Assembly (NCBI RefSeq): GCF_014931565.1
Contig: NZ_CP063353.1
Location: forward strand, 1,240,001 to 1,304,000
Reading direction: 5' to 3'
Length of the DNA stretch: 64,000 nucleotides
Source: Clostridium sp. 'deep sea'
GTDB taxonomy: Bacteria > Bacillota > UBA994 > PWPR01
Position numbers and translations under genes: made by a program. The notes under the pieces are model-generated. The model was not told the origin of the DNA. It did no database searches and saw only the letters and a list, made by a program, of their open reading frames with translations. Below, piece by piece: positions 6,615 through 22,217 of the stretch. The first letter of the stretch is position 1. Each line of letters opens with the position of its first letter.

Positions 6615-6679
6615 ACGAACGCTGGGGACGGGTGATTTTGTTCGGAAAACGAACGAATACACCCGTCCCCAGCGTTCGT
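6615..6679. repeat. 65-bp palindromic repeat, copy 1
   Basis: Twenty-base arms (ACGAACGCTGGGGACGGGTG at 6615-6634 and its complement at 6660-6679) enclose a small inner hairpin GTTCG-GAAAA-CGAAC at 6640-6654. The element is GC-rich against an AT-rich background and recurs at 7239, 9669 and 22218. It resembles REP or MITE-like elements, but I see no linked transposase. Confidence 0.9.
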
Positions 6680-13025: not shown

Positions 13026-13754
13026 TTACATTAAATTTAAATATATTCTTAAACTATTCTCTACTTCTTGTTCAACCATAACTATAAAATCAGTATAATC
13101 ACCCAATGTATGTGCTTTATCTAATGATTCATAGTAATTAACTCTTTCATCATTCTTAATAACTATAGGAGGATAACCGCTCTTCATTAATTCTAAGTTT
13201 AATAATAGCCTTGCTGTACGACCATTTCCATGGCTAAACGGATGAATCTTAACAAATTCACCATGCACTTTTGCTGCCCTCTCAATAGGGTGCATATTTC
13301 CGGCGTCTTGTGATCTGTACCACCCTATAAATTTATGCATTTCATCAATTAAAATGAACTGATTTGGCGGTATATGTTTTGCTCCGGAAATGATAACATT
13401 TTGCTTTCTATATCGCCCAGCGTTCTCATCATCTATTCCTTTTAAAACCAAACGATGAATATTTTTTATCTGCAACTCTGTTAGCTCTTCTTTATTGCTC
13501 ACAATTTCTTCTACATAAAGTATAGCATCTTGATGATTTATAACTTCAAGGTGTTCTCTTAATCTTTTTCCACCTATAGTTATTCCTTCTAATACTACTT
13601 TAGTTTCAATTAACGTTAGGGTGTTTCCTTCTATAGCATTTGAATTATAGGTCCAATCTAACATTAGCTTATCTCTTATGCTCTGAACTGTATAAGAAGG
13701 AAGTGGTCTTAAAGAGTCTAATTCTTCTTTCATTTTTGAAGCTTTATCAAACAT
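13026..13754 (-). CDS. Fic family protein (probable AMPylase), class II-like
   Basis: This 242-residue protein has the Fic catalytic motif HPFSHGNGRTAR with His171, which transfers AMP (or another nucleotide part) to target hydroxyl groups. Near the N-terminus the motif SNAIEGN (Ser38, Glu42) matches the inhibitory helix of class II Fic proteins, where the Glu blocks productive ATP binding. The enzyme is therefore probably autoinhibited. AAGGTGG precedes the ATG. After the stop, a 17-codon open stretch in another frame (EDLKALRHGIKKLEEYL, ending at 12970) continues up to the terminator, so a single-base loss may have trimmed the C-terminus. It lies beside type I restriction genes. Confidence 0.9.
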   Translation of the reverse strand: MFDKASKMKEELDSLRPLPSYTVQSIRDKLMLDWTYNSNAIEGNTLTLIETKVVLEGITIGGKRLREHLEVINHQDAILYVEEIVSNKEELTELQIKNIHRLVLKGIDDENAGRYRKQNVIISGAKHIPPNQFILIDEMHKFIGWYRSQDAGNMHPIERAAKVHGEFVKIHPFSHGNGRTARLLLNLELMKSGYPPIVIKNDERVNYYESLDKAHTLGDYTDFIVMVEQEVENSLRIYLNLM

Positions 13755-13898: not shown

Positions 13899-16800
13899 CT
13901 AAACAATCAACCTTTCATTTAGCTTATCAACAACTTTAATTATTTCTCTGGCAACATCTAATTTGCCAGTAAATAAATTAACTATGTTACCTCGTTTGTT
14001 AAATGGGTGTTCGTTAATTATTTCTTTTTCGATACTACCGTTTTTAATAATATAATTTACTATTAGCTTTACAAACTCCATTTGCTTAACATTTAGGTTT
14101 TCATCTGTTAAAAATTCTGAGAATATTTCATTGGCTGTTTGAGGTTCTAGTCCTACTATTCTACTAACCATTTTCAGCAGTGGCTCATCGCCATACTCTC
14201 TTTGGTAGTCTTCTTTAGTACCTAGCTCTTGCCAGAGCAATGTTTCAAGATGTTTTAAGTCTTTTTGCTGTAACTCTTTATTGTTACGTAGTTTATATAC
14301 AGCTAAATCTTCACTATGTTGTTTAAGGTATTGGTTAACTTTTTTTCGGTAGCTTTGCATTTCGTTAACAGTGTATATTGCTTCACCATCTTTTATCTCT
14401 ATTATTTCATCTTGAAAATTAGTGTAGTAAATATTTTTTTTCTCTTTCTCTATTGTTTTTATTAAATCACGAAATGCCTCTCTTACTTGCTCGTATTCTT
14501 TTACAGTAGCATTTTGCCAAAACTCTTCAGTTTGAACGGCTTTTATTAGCTCTGCGTGAGCCTGTATTTGCTCAACCCTACCTTTTTTAGCTAGGTTTTC
14601 TGCTGTTATAATTACCTTTTGTTTTGGCATTGAGTAGTTTAAACCTTTAAGGTCGGCATACTCAATGGTGTACATTAGATAATCGAATCTCTTTGCCATT
14701 TCATCACCTTGAATAGGTGGAACTAAGGGTGCAACATGATCCTCTAGCTCTTTTACTTGGCTATCTTGCAGAGTGTAAAGTGACTCTTTTTTATTGTATT
14801 TATGGATATACTCGATTTTTAATCGGGCATAAAATTTTGATTCATCTATAACTTTTATTGCTTGACTTAGACCTGTTATTAGCTCATTACTATAGCTAAT
14901 ATAATAATCGTTTTGATAGTTTAAGTGCTGTAGTTCTTTAACTATATTAAGCTTTACATTAAACAGCTTTTCAGTTAGGGTTTTACTAATTTTAACTTCT
15001 TTGCCGTTTTTATTGGCTCTAAAAAACTCGAAGTTACCACAGTAATCGAAGATTCTAAAGCCTTCTTTATGCAAACCTACTCCAAAAAGATCAAGGCAAA
15101 GCCGTGTACCTCTACCAACCATTTGCCAAAACTTTGTTTTAGAGCGAATTTTTTTAAAGAATACAAGGTTAACAACCTCGGGTATATCAATACCTGTATC
15201 GAGCATATCTACCGATACTGCAATTTGAGGTAGTTTTTCTTTTACCTCAAAGTCACTCATAGTGCTTTCTACGTACTTAATTCCTGTGTAAACAGGTTTA
15301 GCTAACTGACCTTTATATTTAGGGTAAAGAATATTAAACCTATCTATTATAAACTCAGCATGGCGCTTATTTTTGGCAAAAATGATTGTTTTACCAATTT
15401 TATCTCCACCCTCTACTTTAATACCATGGTTCATTAGGTTTTGAATTACTTTATCTATTGTATCTTTATTAAATAAAAACTCGTTTAAAGCCTCGCTACT
15501 TATGTCAGTTACACCCTCATCAAAGGTATTCTCGAACTCTTCTTGTTCTTCGGGTGATAAATCATCGTAGTGTATACCCTCTTCTAAAAACTTGGTTTTA
15601 ACCTCATAGGTATGATAAGGCACAAGGTATTTATCTTCAATCGCCTCACTAAGCTCATAGGCAAAGGTTGGCACATTGTTCTCAAGCTCAAATACCTCAT
15701 AGGTGTTTTTATCGATATCGCTTTTGGGGGTAGCTGTTAAACCAAGTAACATAGCATCAAAGTAGTTAAAAATAGCCTGATACTTTTTATAGATACTTCG
15801 GTGACTTTCATCTATAATAATTAAATCGAAATGCCCACTGGTAAAGAGCTTTTCATTGTGTTTATTTTTGATATTATCTATAGCATTCATCATGGTTGGG
15901 TAAGTCGAAAACACCATTCTACTCTCAGGACTATCTTTACTATCGAGTAAATTGCAAAGAGATAAGTTTGGTAATAGGTTTTTAAAATTCTTTTTGCCTG
16001 TTTTACTAAAGCGGTTCTATCAGCTAAAAATAAAATATTTTTTACCCAGCCTCTGCTAATTAAAACATCAACCAATGATATAGCAGTACGTGTTTTGCCA
16101 GAGCCAGTTGCCATTACTAACAATGCCTTTCGGCTTTTGTCCATAAATGTTTCACATACAGCATTAATAGCCATCTTTTGATAGGGTCGGTCGGTAATAT
16201 GGTCTTTTATAGTAGGGTTATGCAGTGGCTGTTTATTAGTTCTTTTATATAACAGCCATTCAAGCTCTTCTTTGGTGTAAATGCCCGATACTTTACGCTC
16301 GGGGTAATTATTATCATCCCATAAATAATACTCAAAACCATTAGTGTAAAAAATAATTGGTCTTACACCATACTGTTGCTCTAAACAATCGGCATATCTT
16401 AAAGCCTGTACCTGACCTATACGGGGGCTGACACTTGTTTTTTTAGCCTCTACTAAAGCCAGTGGTTTGCCATTATCAGCATAAAGTACATAGTCAACAA
16501 AACCTACACCAGAGCTATTAGGCATGCCTGTTACTTCTACTTCTTCAAGACAATTATCTCCTCTTACCCAGTTATTAAGCTCGAGCTCTAAATCTATGTA
16601 TAGCTTACGAGTTTTAAACTCCGAAATCTCTTTAACCTCAAATGCTCTACTCTGTTTATTCTTAACTCGTTTTTCTGCATTTAGCTTACGAAGCTCTTCA
16701 TTCTCTTTAATTACTTCTTCGAGTTTACGGTCTTTAGAGCCTAGTCGCTCGTATAAATCCTGTAGCTCTTTACGAGTTTTCTTTTCTTGCTCATTATTAG

Positions 16801-17221
16801 CTAAGAGATTTTCATTAAAATCAATATTATGTAACTCAGTAGAGTAACAGTAATCTATCCACGATACAAACTCATATAAATTATGCAAAGCCAAAACAGC
16901 CTGCTCTTTATTTATAGGAGACGCTGAATGAACAGCTTTATTGCCAAGCTGTTGAATATACCTTAACTTAGGAAATAAGTTAATATCTATAATATTTTTA
17001 AAGGTATGGTCATGGATTAAAGTAGCTAAATTATCTTGATAAGGTACAATTAAATCTTCATCGAAACTATAAACCCATTTTATAGTTAGCTCCAAAGCAC
17101 GCCTAGTAAGTATGGCTGTAGTAGCATACGACACAACCATACTCTTTTCTGCTTCAATACAGGCATTGGTGAATGAATTATATTTTTCTTCTTTTTTTAG
17201 GAAGGTGAAGTTGTTGTGCAT
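13899..17221 (-). pseudogene. hsdR: HsdR, type I restriction endonuclease subunit, frameshifted
   Basis: Two overlapping frames (15890-17221 and 13899-15917) together encode one complete HsdR of about 1,107 residues. The first part has a DUF4145-like N-terminal region, a PD-(D/E)xK nuclease (GFVDYVLYADNGKP...VEAKKT) and Walker A ATGSGKT. The second has DESHR, GLTATP and the helicase motif VGRGTR, then the C-terminal domain. The frame breaks at a five-base A tract (15991-15995); one more A restores KKNFKNLL and continuity. HsdR is the ATP-driven translocase and nuclease of the type I complex. Whether the break is real, phase-variable or a sequencing error cannot be told here. The start ATG at 17221 has AGGAG upstream. 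Confidence 0.85.
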
Positions 17222-17233
17222 ATGTTTTAACTC

Positions 17234-17401
17234 CTAATCTTTTATAGCATTATATATTTCCAGGGCTAATTCGTCATTATGGTCATAGTCTCCATTAAAA
17301 ATTGATGTCATTATTTTATGTAAAAGTTTCTTATTTATCTTTCCAGCAGCTACATGATAACTAATATTCTCTAACTTATGTATAAATTTTGTTTCTACCA
17401 C
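17234..17401 (-). CDS. Small ORF of 55 codons between the RhuM-like gene and hsdR
   Basis: A GTG-started frame overlaps the end of the RhuM-like gene by 26 bases and ends 12 bases before the hsdR ATG. The product (VETKFIHKLENISYHVAAGKI, then a charged acidic C-terminus) looks like a compact helical protein. I do not recognise it. It could be a small independent gene of the restriction operon or the displaced C-terminus of its upstream neighbour. No strong ribosome binding site is seen, so translation by coupling would be needed. Confidence 0.4.
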   Translation of the reverse strand: MVETKFIHKLENISYHVAAGKINKKLLHKIMTSIFNGDYDHNDELALEIYNAIKD

Positions 17402-18233
17402 TCGTAATTAAAGGTTTCCAATGAGGCAACTCTTCAAAATTCTTAAAAATCTTATCTACTTCCCAGTTATTAAGTTTTCTGTTGAGCTTTTCTGATTCAG
17501 TTTTGAGTAGCTCAGCTAAGCCACATTCGTATGAAGCAACTAAATCTAAAATTTCTGAATAAAACGTATCTCTCACTCTATCTTTACTCTTTAGGTTTAA
17601 AATAGCTCGGTATTCTTTAGCCTTTTCTTTAAAAATGCTCTGATAAATTTTATCGGTATAACGTGCGTACTTAAATTTATCCATATCTACATAATCTCTT
17701 AAAACATCAGTAAATTCTCTTCTATAGTTTTCTTCTTGTAAAAATGCTCCCAAGAAACTTCGGTCTCTTTGATTTATATACTTTGTAGCTCCACCAGTTT
17801 TTTGGTTAATTGTATCTATGACAATATCTAATATCATCTTACGTAAAACTCTGGAGTTATCGCTTTCTACTAAGAGCATTCCTATGTTTAAAAAACACTT
17901 AAAATTAAGTACTGCTAATACAGTAGTTTTGGTACCGACATTGATGTCGCTACCAAAAAATTTTTTCAACTCAACTAAAAACAGTTTAAGTCTCTTACCC
18001 TTTAATAATTGATATCCATTGCTATTTAATTCATCAGAATTTTTTGAGATATATCTTTCTATTGTTCTTATATCTACCTCAAAAAAATCTGCTACCATCT
18101 CTTTTGTAAAAGTAAGCTCCTGTTCAAAAATAACACCTTTTATACTGGCTGACTTTCGTATTTCAGTTAGGGCAATTTCATTATTTAAAATATTTTGCCT
18201 ATCTAGTTGAGAGTTAGTTAGGTTTTTATTCAT
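17376..18233 (-). CDS. RhuM-like/type I restriction-associated DNA-binding protein
   Basis: This 285-residue protein has an N-terminal helix-turn-helix region (FTKEMVADFFEVDIRTIERYISKNSDEL) and conserved-looking segments INVGTKTTVLAVLNFKCFLNIGMLL and INQKTGGATKYINQRDR. Proteins of this kind recur inside type I restriction-modification loci, with no settled function. Family members known to me are longer at the C-terminus, so this one may be shortened. It is inserted between the specificity and restriction genes and flanked by two copies of the hsdR 5' end, which suggests it arrived as a cassette. Confidence 0.65.
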   Translation of the reverse strand: MNKNLTNSQLDRQNILNNEIALTEIRKSASIKGVIFEQELTFTKEMVADFFEVDIRTIERYISKNSDELNSNGYQLLKGKRLKLFLVELKKFFGSDINVGTKTTVLAVLNFKCFLNIGMLLVESDNSRVLRKMILDIVIDTINQKTGGATKYINQRDRSFLGAFLQEENYRREFTDVLRDYVDMDKFKYARYTDKIYQSIFKEKAKEYRAILNLKSKDRVRDTFYSEILDLVASYECGLAELLKTESEKLNRKLNNWEVDKIFKNFEELPHWKPLITSGRNKIYT

Positions 18234-18315
18234 GTTTACACCTCTCTTCCTTTATATATTTATTTAATAAATTATTAGTTCACGGTTTAAATAAAGATAA
18301 CATCATCTCATATAA

Positions 18316-18414
18316 CTATATGATAGAACCAAACTCTTTTCTGCTTTCAATACAGGCATTGGTGAATGAAATATATTTATCTTCTTTTTTTAGGAATGTG
18401 AAGTTGTTCTTCAT
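18316..18414 (-). pseudogene. Remnant duplicate of the hsdR 5' end
   Basis: A 32-codon frame starting MKNNFTFLKKEDKY is a near copy of the first codons of hsdR (MHNNFTFLKKEEKY at 17221). Over the first 69 bases there are five substitutions; then one extra base shifts the frame, yet homology continues at the DNA level to about 18290. It still carries an AGGAG ribosome binding site. Together with the true 5' end it forms direct repeats around the RhuM-like gene. Confidence 0.85.
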
Positions 18415-18437
18415 GTTTTTTCTCCTGTTGTTTAATG

Positions 18438-19103
18438 CTAAATATTTTTAAACATATTAAAAAAATGCTTAGAAACAGGCTCATCTTCAAATAAAATGAA
18501 TTTATCACTTGGTATGTCCTTTATAATGAAAAAATCATTATTACTGTATCTATCTATCTTTTTAACATCTAAAGCTAAAACAAAATCTATATTAGGATAA
18601 TGTTGTGGTAATGATTTATCTAAAATATATGAATCTAAATAGTCATCATACCTATAGCCAAACTTTTTTAACATATTCCTCTTTTGAATTTTATAGCTAT
18701 AACAGAACAAACCTACTTTTAAACCGAAACTATTATTTAACTTTTTCATCTCATTTGCAATTTGATTAAGCTTCTTTAGGTCGCATGTATCTGCACAGCT
18801 TTTTACTTCTAAGACAATTTCAGCATATTTAATATCAACAATTGAGTGAGAGCCAAAAACTTCATTTGGAGCATTTTCTTTAGTAACGATTATATCTAAT
18901 TGGCTTGATTGATAGCCTTTATCGTCATCAATAATTACACCCTTTCTAAAATCAAGAGCCTTGAATCTTTTGATAACTTGATCTTTTAAAAACTCTTCTC
19001 TTATTTCGCCTCTAGTTAATTTATGATTTATTATTTCAGATGCATTATATTGAACAAGTAATAATCTTTCAATATAATCGTTGTATTTATCAAAAAATTT
19101 CAT
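18438..19103 (-). CDS. DUF6602-type nuclease-like protein
   Basis: This 221-residue protein has a compact PD-(D/E)xK-like core: an Arg/Glu-rich N-terminal helix, then QLDIIVTKENAPNEVF (Asp), then IVLEVKSCADTCDL (Glu and Lys). That layout matches DUF6602 proteins, which I recall near restriction systems; the assignment is from pattern recognition. Its start overlaps the end of hsdS by 14 bases, so it is part of the restriction operon. It could be an accessory nuclease or a fused-function relic. The activity is not known. Confidence 0.6.
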   Translation of the reverse strand: MKFFDKYNDYIERLLLVQYNASEIINHKLTRGEIREEFLKDQVIKRFKALDFRKGVIIDDDKGYQSSQLDIIVTKENAPNEVFGSHSIVDIKYAEIVLEVKSCADTCDLKKLNQIANEMKKLNNSFGLKVGLFCYSYKIQKRNMLKKFGYRYDDYLDSYILDKSLPQHYPNIDFVLALDVKKIDRYSNNDFFIIKDIPSDKFILFEDEPVSKHFFNMFKNI

Positions 19104-20256
19104 TTTCTAACCACAAATAATCACCACTAAAAGCTTTCTTGAGTATGCAGTTATAGTAATTTCTACATTCTGTTAGAGATTTTTGCACTTGCTCTTTTAG
19201 TAGATGTATTCTTCTTACCTGTATTTCATAATTATCTTGAACTGCCATTGCAGGTACAATAACATTAAAGTTTTTAATTTCTTTTAAATGTAAATCTGGA
19301 ACCCCAATTCCCTTAATTGATTTTATAGCTTGCCTAAATACATAGGGAGTTTTCATCATTTCTTTGAGAAAAACACTATTTAAATACTCTTTTTTTGGCT
19401 TTAATAATGCAACACTAACATATATACTAAACTCTATATTGTTATCTACTATTGCAGGAACTCCATATCTTGCTCCTACTTTGGTATATAAAATATCACC
19501 TCTTTCTGGCTTACATCTAGATGTATACTTTGTATGTGAATTAATTGAGATATATTTACAATCATCAAAAACAAGAGTTCCATTACTAATATTTTTAACA
19601 GATATAAATGGTATACCATCCTGTGTGTAGTTGGGCTTTTGATGAACTCCATCAGTAATTCTATTTGTTACATCACTTAGTTTTCTAATCTCCCACCCCT
19701 TAGGATTAGTCACAGGGTCACCAAACATATCATAGAAGATTGATTGAGTTAGCTCATCGAGTAGCCTTATTTGCTCTTTTCGGGCATCGATTAGGCTTTG
19801 GGCTTTATCTAAAACTTCAACAATTTTCTTTTGGGTTGGTAGTGGTGGTAGTGGGATTTTTATATCACTCAATATCGACTTATTAATAGACTTAAATGTG
19901 CTTCCAGTACCTAAGCTTATTATTTTATCCTTATTTTTTAATAGAAAATAAAATAAATATTTGAAATATAGCTTTTCATCTTCGCATCGTATGGCTGCTA
20001 GACCTCTACCTATACAATATTCTTGATCTGATATGTTAACATCACCTACTGGTGCCCTCACAGATATCAATAGGTCATTCTTAATCGATAATTTTTTTGG
20101 AGAACTACAGTATGTCCTAGCTTTTGGATTTACTTTACCAAAATCAGCTTTTCCCTGTAGAAATCTATACCCTTTACTAGCTTTATTATATGTTGAAGAT
20201 GGTGGAGATTGACCCATTATTAATTCTGCAATATCTTTTAACTTTACACATTTCAT
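19090..20256 (-). CDS. hsdS: HsdS, type I restriction-modification specificity subunit
   Basis: This 388-residue protein has two target-recognition domains (about residues 1-135 and 190-335), each followed by a conserved helical spacer. The first spacer is clear: PLPPLPTQKKIVEVLDKAQSL then LLDELTQSIFYDMFGDP. HsdS reads the two halves of the DNA target and holds two HsdM and two HsdR subunits. It starts 2 bases after hsdM, on the same transcript. The second spacer (VRRIHLLKEQVQKSLTECRNYYNCILKKAFSG) is present, so the gene looks complete. Confidence 0.93.
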   Translation of the reverse strand: MKCVKLKDIAELIMGQSPPSSTYNKASKGYRFLQGKADFGKVNPKARTYCSSPKKLSIKNDLLISVRAPVGDVNISDQEYCIGRGLAAIRCEDEKLYFKYLFYFLLKNKDKIISLGTGSTFKSINKSILSDIKIPLPPLPTQKKIVEVLDKAQSLIDARKEQIRLLDELTQSIFYDMFGDPVTNPKGWEIRKLSDVTNRITDGVHQKPNYTQDGIPFISVKNISNGTLVFDDCKYISINSHTKYTSRCKPERGDILYTKVGARYGVPAIVDNNIEFSIYVSVALLKPKKEYLNSVFLKEMMKTPYVFRQAIKSIKGIGVPDLHLKEIKNFNVIVPAMAVQDNYEIQVRRIHLLKEQVQKSLTECRNYYNCILKKAFSGDYLWLENEIF

Positions 20257-20258
20257 TA

Positions 20259-21710
20259 CTACACCATCCTCTCAAGTTCATCTAAACCCTCAAGGATTTG
20301 TTTTTCAAGTTTTTTTATTTTTTCAATTATTACTTTTGGCTTTTCATACTCTACTTCTTCATAAACTATTTCTTTATATCGGTTAATAGATAAGTCGTAG
20401 TCATTATCTACAATTTCTTTTTTATTAACTAGGAAAGACTGCTCGGTACACTCCCTGTTCTCTTCGTCTTTTAAGTTGTGATACCTAGCAATAATATCGG
20501 GTATATCATTTTGCTCGGTAGGTTGGCGTTTATCATCGAGTGAAAAACCATCTGCCTGCATATCGTAAAACCAGACTTTATCTGTACCACCTACCCCTGT
20601 TTTGGTAAAAATCATTATGGCTGTAGATACCCCTGCATAGGGCTTAAATACACCACTTGGCATTGAGATAATAGCATGTAAATGATGGTTTTCGATTATC
20701 TCTTTACGAATTGATTTATGGGCTTTTGAGCTACCAAATAAAACACCATCGGGCACTATTGAAGCACAGCGACCGCCAATTTTTAAGGAACGCAAAAATA
20801 AAGCTAAGAATAATAGCTCGGTTTTTTTAGTTTTAGTTACTTTTAGTAAATCTGCTGATACACTATCGTAATCGAGTGAACCTTTAAATGGAGGGTTGGC
20901 TAGTACTAAAGTGTATTTTTCGTTATCTTTGTTTTGTTCCGATAAGGAATCTTTGTATTCTATATTGGGTTTATCTACTCCATGTAACATCATATTCATG
21001 GCACCAATACGTAACATGGTTCGATCCATATCGTAGCCATAAAACATGGTATTGTGGTAGTGCTGTTTTAGCTCATTTACGTTAAATAAATCTTCATTAT
21101 GGTTTTGTAAATACTCACCTGCTGCTACTAAAAAACCTGCTGAACCGGCAGCTGGGTCAATTATTAAATCGGATACAGTGGGTTTCATTAGCTTTACCAT
21201 CATTTTTATGATGTGACGAGGCGTACGAAACTGCCCATTAGTGCCCGATGAAGCAACCTTAGAGAGTAAATACTCATATAAATCACCCTTAGTGTCACCA
21301 CCCTTTAACGGTAGGTTATCGATATTGGTAATTATTTTTTCTAATAATTGAGGGGTAGGTATCATAAAAATAGCGTCATCCATGTACTTAGTAAAGGCAG
21401 AGTCTTTATCTCCGTGCATGTTTTTAATAAATGGAAATGCCTTGCGAGATACCACATCGTACATAGCAATAGCACTTAGCTGTTTAAAATTGCTCCAACG
21501 AATATCTTGTTGCTTATTATTAAAGATTTTTTGAGGTTTAATGCCTAATATTTCTGCATTTTTTTCGAGGTCAGTCTGTTTATCATCGAGTCCTTTAATG
21601 AATAATAAATATGTAAATTGCTCAATAACTGAAAGAGGATTAGTTATGCCCCCTGTCCAGAATATCTCCCAAATTTTATCTACTTTGCTTCTTAACTCCC
21701 CAGTAATCAT
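20259..21710 (-). CDS. hsdM: HsdM, type I N6-adenine DNA methyltransferase subunit
   Basis: This 483-residue protein has an N-terminal helical HsdM domain (about 1-130), the SAM-binding motif DPAAGSAGFLVAAG near residue 180 and the catalytic motif NPPF (LANPPFKGSL near residue 272). It methylates adenine at the type I target and is the core of the modification complex with HsdS. GGGAGG lies 6 bases before the ATG. It is the first gene of the minus-strand hsdM-hsdS-DUF6602-rhuM-hsdR series. Confidence 0.95.
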   Translation of the reverse strand: MITGELRSKVDKIWEIFWTGGITNPLSVIEQFTYLLFIKGLDDKQTDLEKNAEILGIKPQKIFNNKQQDIRWSNFKQLSAIAMYDVVSRKAFPFIKNMHGDKDSAFTKYMDDAIFMIPTPQLLEKIITNIDNLPLKGGDTKGDLYEYLLSKVASSGTNGQFRTPRHIIKMMVKLMKPTVSDLIIDPAAGSAGFLVAAGEYLQNHNEDLFNVNELKQHYHNTMFYGYDMDRTMLRIGAMNMMLHGVDKPNIEYKDSLSEQNKDNEKYTLVLANPPFKGSLDYDSVSADLLKVTKTKKTELLFLALFLRSLKIGGRCASIVPDGVLFGSSKAHKSIRKEIIENHHLHAIISMPSGVFKPYAGVSTAIMIFTKTGVGGTDKVWFYDMQADGFSLDDKRQPTEQNDIPDIIARYHNLKDEENRECTEQSFLVNKKEIVDNDYDLSINRYKEIVYEEVEYEKPKVIIEKIKKLEKQILEGLDELERMV

Positions 21711-21964: not shown

Positions 21965-22150
21965 CTAACAAACTTTTTGAAACAAATCCACACAATAATC
22001 TTTTATATCAGTCTCATTTATCATATTATATTTTTCATATATTTTATTATAGTATTCTTTTATTAATGTTTTTTCAATAATTCTATTAGATGGTTCACTA
22101 TCATTAAGACCCACTCTAGTTATTTGCCACGATCTTTCACTATGAGTCAT
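21965..22150 (-). CDS. Small hypothetical ORF, possibly a remnant
   Basis: A 61-codon frame encodes a polar, helical product (WQITRVGLNDSEPSNRIIEKTLI near the start). The ribosome binding site is weak and I recognise no family. The coherent amphipathic composition hints at real or recently real coding sequence, perhaps a fragment of a larger lost gene at the edge of the restriction island. Confidence 0.3.
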   Translation of the reverse strand: MTHSERSWQITRVGLNDSEPSNRIIEKTLIKEYYNKIYEKYNMINETDIKDYCVDLFQKVC

Positions 22151-22217
22151 TGCTTCGAGAACTTTACCACTATAACAGCCAAAGGTATTAGTTATTACGT
22201 TTATTATATTTAATGAG

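Follow-up and report, generated by a model that had tools for sequence, protein, structure and literature searches.

The window (the whole stretch of 64,000 nucleotides from Clostridium sp. 'deep sea' that was analysed) carries a type I restriction-modification locus with an EcoEI-like HsdR, in which hsdM, hsdS and hsdR are all present together. The locus lies on the minus strand, in the order hsdM, hsdS, a DUF6602 gene, a relic of the hsdR 5' end, a PDC-M59A frame, a small frame and hsdR. The methyltransferase gene hsdM (20259–21710) matches Pfam N6_Mtase and HsdM_N as well as the profile MTase_I (E 3.7e-192), and the specificity-subunit gene hsdS (19090–20256) matches Methylase_S. The end of hsdS is overlapped by a PD-(D/E)xK-like gene (18438–19103) with DUF6602 and PD_DExK matches. 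The relic (18318–18436) comprises a ribosome-binding site and an ATG (18414), after which come about 33 codons that have decayed and contain one inserted base. It is followed by an 84 bp spacer (18234–18317), in which no hsdS tail was recognised, by the 285-amino-acid PDC-M59A frame (17376–18233) and, in another frame, by the last 50 or so codons of PDC-M59B (17234–17386). The gene hsdR itself (13899–17221), which carries the other copy of the repeat at its 5' end, is read as two frames (15890–17221 and 13899–15917). The left flank of the locus is formed by the 3' remnant of a SocA/Panacea-domain gene (21966–22210), also on the minus strand, and a Fic-family gene, for which PADLOC PDC-S04 and SoFic are the best profiles, is located just downstream of hsdR (13026–13754). 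We also note that the window contains four copies (at 6622, 7246, 9676 and 22225) of a REP-like palindrome, CTGGGGACGG...CCGTCCCCAG, whose arms are separated by about 41 nt; one of its arms is also found upstream of M59A in L213, a locus described below.

An earlier, sequence-only reading of this DNA had reported that the hsdR start (17221) and a decayed copy of it (18414) bracket a RhuM-like gene and a small frame, the copies differing by five substitutions in 69 bases plus one inserted base. The repeat is found where that reading placed it and the count is exact: counted from the start codons, the first 69 bases contain five substitutions, and one inserted A follows. The homology spans more than these 69 bases, running from the ribosome-binding site to about codon 33, and 103 of the 118 aligned columns match between hsdR (17126–17245) and the relic, a relationship well beyond a short shared start. 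The blastn E value is 1.5e-31 and the local alignment score is 81, compared with a maximum of 19 across 500 dinucleotide shuffles; the repeat is far beyond chance. Most of the differences between the copies are nonsynonymous, a pattern that suits decay following duplication and cannot discriminate between the routes considered below. No convincing further copies were found elsewhere in the window's own genome, and no transposase was seen between the two copies.

The name RhuM-like did not hold. Neither the M59A protein of the window nor its intact homologue in L043 has a Pfam match, RhuM (PF13310 Virulence_RhuM) included. The 285-amino-acid frame instead matches PADLOC PDC-M59A (PDLC04717) over residues 3–283 with an E value of 1.6e-88. 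M59A is the first gene of the PADLOC candidate defence pair PDC-M59, a name that was not found in the literature searched, and M59B encodes a Doc/Fic protein. Intact relatives of M59A (in L043 and L048) have 339–342 codons and are followed by the Doc/Fic gene PDC-M59B. Alignment with these homologues shows that the window has suffered a deletion of about 0.5 kb: M59A breaks off near codon 282 and is joined to the C-terminal 50 or so codons of M59B, which lie in another frame, and the Doc catalytic HxFxDGNKR region is gone. The gene is thus the first member of a broken pair. The small frame, earlier listed as an element of its own, represents the 3' end of M59B that the deletion spared; an intact M59B adjoining M59A is absent from the window, where only the C-terminal codons remain.

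Intact M59A–M59B pairs are located directly upstream of hsdR in relatives from two hsdR families. In the second of these families, the pair is intact in L211 and L212, upstream of an hsdR nearly identical to that of L207. L207 has independently suffered a deletion that ends at another point in M59A and likewise leaves the M59B tail beside hsdR. We note that the deletions in L207 (1–830) and in the window (17234–17394) both drop the Doc active site and keep the last 45–50 codons of M59B before hsdR; perhaps this tail is retained because hsdR translation may depend on the stretch. The pair is also found after a type III system on Ilyobacter plasmid pILYOP01, and no relative of M59A or of the window hsdR was found among viral contigs. 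Of two predicted structures of M59A, the first had a pLDDT of 36; the second reached 64.6 and was confident only in its N-terminal segment. Comparison with the PDB gave no significant match. We infer that M59AB is a candidate toxin–antitoxin-like defence pair.

Compared with its relatives, which read through, the window hsdR lacks one base in an A-run near 15.97 kb (15960–15985), giving two frames, and a complete hsdR reading frame is not present in the window sequence. The shortfall may be real or may be an assembly error. The history of the site is illuminated by a same-genus genome, G001, which has the same flanks. In this genome (L253, contig 60, 5727–6940) the SocA/Panacea-domain gene is complete and is followed directly by the last 55 or so codons of hsdR, the rest of the type I locus having gone from the site. 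Because G001 keeps this hsdR 3' end between shared flanks, we regard the locus as old at this position and lost in G001. Over a short stretch of 166 bp, the 3' end of the window hsdR is 79% identical to the G001 remnant, compared with 63–75% to other loci, suggesting that the 3' part of the gene did not come from a distant donor. At least this end of hsdR looks native to the site, whether resident or acquired from a congener.

A scan of genome contigs, together with genome searches, provided 17 loci with close hsdR genes, the window included. These loci are not all alike, the hsdS–hsdR gap being either empty or occupied by at least six unrelated cargoes. The gap is empty (26–36 bp) in L167, L168 and L198. 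The arrangement hsdM-hsdS-DUF6602-hsdR, which the sequence-only reading had proposed looking for in relatives, is found in L037 (Paenibacillus MAEPY2), where there is no M59 and the DUF6602 homologue lies directly between hsdS and hsdR; in the window, the DUF6602 gene is the older cargo. L048 (Alkaliphilus NORP52) has the order hsdM-hsdS-M59A-M59B-hsdR, with a short M59B–hsdR spacing similar to that in the window. A Septu-like AAA pair occupies the gap in L036, L039 and L041. In L043 the second gene of this pair survives as a tail only and is followed by M59AB and then hsdR, an order from which we conclude that cargoes stack on the hsdR side. As for the other cargoes, L038 carries a TrlF-like ATPase, which is found decayed in L034, L044 carries AbiTii together with other genes, L042 a set that includes an integrase, and L035 an unknown gene; none of the cargo proteins tested has a match in the 1.2 kb gap of L169. 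When the comparison was widened to 80 loci in which hsdM and a presumed hsdS lie upstream, the gap was empty (80 bp or less) in 14 and longer than 250 bp in 66, a rough count that includes second hsdS genes and misassigned hsdS frames.

Cargo type does not agree with the hsdR tree, and DNA homology between hsdR relatives with different cargo ends mostly at positions −28 to +6 around the hsdR ATG. For example, L038 (TrlF) and L041 (AAA pair) share 95% identity across the 8 kb that begin at −15 of the hsdR ATG, while their hsdM genes are 83% identical. The hsdR genes of L065 and L085 are 97–99% identical over the first 600 bp or so and mostly 79–93% identical thereafter, with unrelated upstream DNA, which looks like a recent recombination tract beginning at the hsdR start. 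As judged from these comparisons, defence genes have docked repeatedly at the hsdR start. Raised synonymous identity over the opening 33 codons of hsdR was considered as a further sign of repeated docking and was rejected, since hsdM has the same gene-start effect.

Scars comparable to the relic are rare. The 600 bp or more available upstream of hsdR were scanned in 110 loci at a threshold of E 0.001, and copies of the hsdR start were found there in three (the window, L036 and L085), each with an E value of 5e-14 or lower and with repeat lengths of about 118, 57 and 43 bp. L036 (Herbivorax ANBcel31) has the order hsdS, hsdR relic (93%), duplicated hsdS tail, Septu-like AAA pair and hsdR. Its relic follows the end of hsdS at the spacing of empty loci, and the duplicated hsdS tail (81.5%, E 5e-31) begins exactly where the relic ends. 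Because this second hsdS tail abuts the relic, we interpret the insert as a donor piece from a type I locus that was joined inside the old hsdR start. L085 offers a weaker parallel, its shorter repeat being located around repeat DNA and not a gene. Tails of hsdS without a second hsdS gene are also present between cargoes in L035, L042 (two), L044, L091 and L104. No relic is detectable in L048 or L043, both of which carry M59AB, and scar-free exchange must therefore also occur. A decayed relic suspected in L043 between the AAA-pair tail and M59A was rejected, as 588 of 2000 shuffles reach its score. Finally, in L213 M59A, M59B and codons 1–26 of hsdR are followed by a TPP riboswitch and thi genes, and the stretch read contains no type I genes. 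This orphan unit is either M59AB in a form that moves together with an hsdR stub or what is left of a type I locus that has been lost.

In our view, the most consistent interpretation, to which we assign a probability of roughly 0.6, is that M59AB joined to an hsdR start was inserted additively at the resident hsdR start, leaving direct repeats, and subsequently decayed. In this scheme a resident hsdM-hsdS-DUF6602-hsdR locus would have received DNA in which M59A-M59B was joined to an hsdR start. The incoming stub would have recombined with the resident hsdR start in an additive event, cutting off the first 35 or so resident codons upstream as a dead relic and placing the cargo between the relic and a complete hsdR start, so that the hsdR 5' end would stand as a direct repeat on both sides. 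The left junction of the insert is then within the 84 bp spacer (18234–18317) or at its edge. Homology-facilitated illegitimate recombination and additive single-crossover integration are processes in which the anchoring sequence is repeated around the insert and one join is made without homology. The DNA may have been a circle integrated by one crossover, or a linear fragment with one anchored end and one illegitimate join; the predicted product is the same. The relic would later have decayed, and the deletion of about 0.5 kb would have fused M59A to the M59B tail and removed the Doc active site. The scheme builds on the observed repeat, gene identities, deletion, loci with and without the pair, recurring scars and orphan M59AB unit with its hsdR stub; we infer from these the physical route, circular or linear, and the order of events. 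The junction was compared with that of other species only, which leaves the insertion undated.

Three other routes to the repeat rank below additive insertion. A linear donor carrying the cargo and most or all of a new hsdR could have replaced the resident hsdR, with an illegitimate join in the old hsdR start. L036, where a donor hsdS tail, cargo and hsdR all lie downstream of the relic, would suit such a replacement, as would the L065/L085 tract of about 600 bp that begins at the hsdR start. We nevertheless think it rather unlikely for the window, where the 3' end of hsdR resembles the G001 remnant at this site more than any other locus. The sequence-only reading had suggested an insertion at the hsdR start that left a relic and possibly brought in a new hsdR. 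Its first part stands, given loci with and without the gene, the break in homology at the hsdR ATG and the second relic in L036; the import of a whole new hsdR is unneeded and, because of the G001 comparison, mildly disfavoured. Its proposal that accessory genes move in and out at this point is borne out by the difference between L037 and L048, by the homology breaks between loci with different cargo and by the L036 relic.

An element that inserted M59AB and duplicated about 100 bp of target would also leave cargo flanked by direct repeats. This seems improbable to us, as the repeat length varies among the three cases, no transposase is seen between the repeats and a donor hsdS tail adjoins the relic in L036. 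We judge equally poorly a tandem duplication within one locus in which M59AB was already present, followed by deletion. The two window copies are indeed closer to each other than to any other hsdR start found, but extra steps are required, and the order in L036, where hsdS stands against the relic as in empty loci and is followed by a divergent second hsdS tail, is left unexplained. A relative with DUF6602, relic and hsdR and no cargo, which would favour this route, was not found. It is very improbable that the relic is no scar at all and serves as a functional leader, either a short reading frame or a regulatory site. It does retain a ribosome-binding site and a 32-codon frame, but it is missing from the comparable loci L048, L043 and L037 and has acquired a frame-shifting insertion and mainly nonsynonymous changes.

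The usual account of how defence genes gather inside restriction loci speaks of a hotspot only. Join scars reveal which ends recombine and which cargo came last, and they indicate that the start of a neighbouring gene may be the docking sequence. We tentatively extend additive insertion to a wider possibility, that defence cassettes might move as units with a short hsdR (or hsdS-end) stub as a homology handle and dock additively at any related locus, the hsdR start acting as an attachment site without a dedicated integrase. Since the scars record joins, the number of hsdR-start and hsdS-tail scars across public genomes offers a test of the hotspot idea.

The cargo of the window resembles PADLOC PDC-M59 in that its M59A matches by profile, but this M59A lacks its end and most of M59B is gone. 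The NCBIfam restriction-system-associated AAA ATPase TIGR04435, or Septu-like PtuA pair, takes the same slot in L036, L039 and L041, and in L036 the second relic flanks it; the window cargo differs, and the AAA pair scores below the family's own cut-off. The direct repeats at the insert edges and the single join without homology liken the window to homology-facilitated illegitimate recombination, known here from the anatomy alone. Defence genes embedded between hsdS and hsdR, such as DarTG2 in the EPEC RRDM island, have been described, with the site as a potential recombination hotspot, in PMC12255303. The loci reported here are similar in carrying unrelated cargo between hsdS and hsdR, namely DUF6602, M59AB, the Septu-like AAA pair, the TrlF-like ATPase and AbiTii. 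No earlier description of hsdR-start or hsdS-tail scars was found in a search that largely excluded preprints and subscription papers, including the 2024 embedded-defence preprint cited in PMC12255303. The hotspot idea is thus already published and, within that literature, the scars appear to be the new element: unlike the embedded-defence loci, for which the sections of PMC12255303 consulted describe none, the loci compared here record their insertions as duplications of the hsdR start and the hsdS tail.
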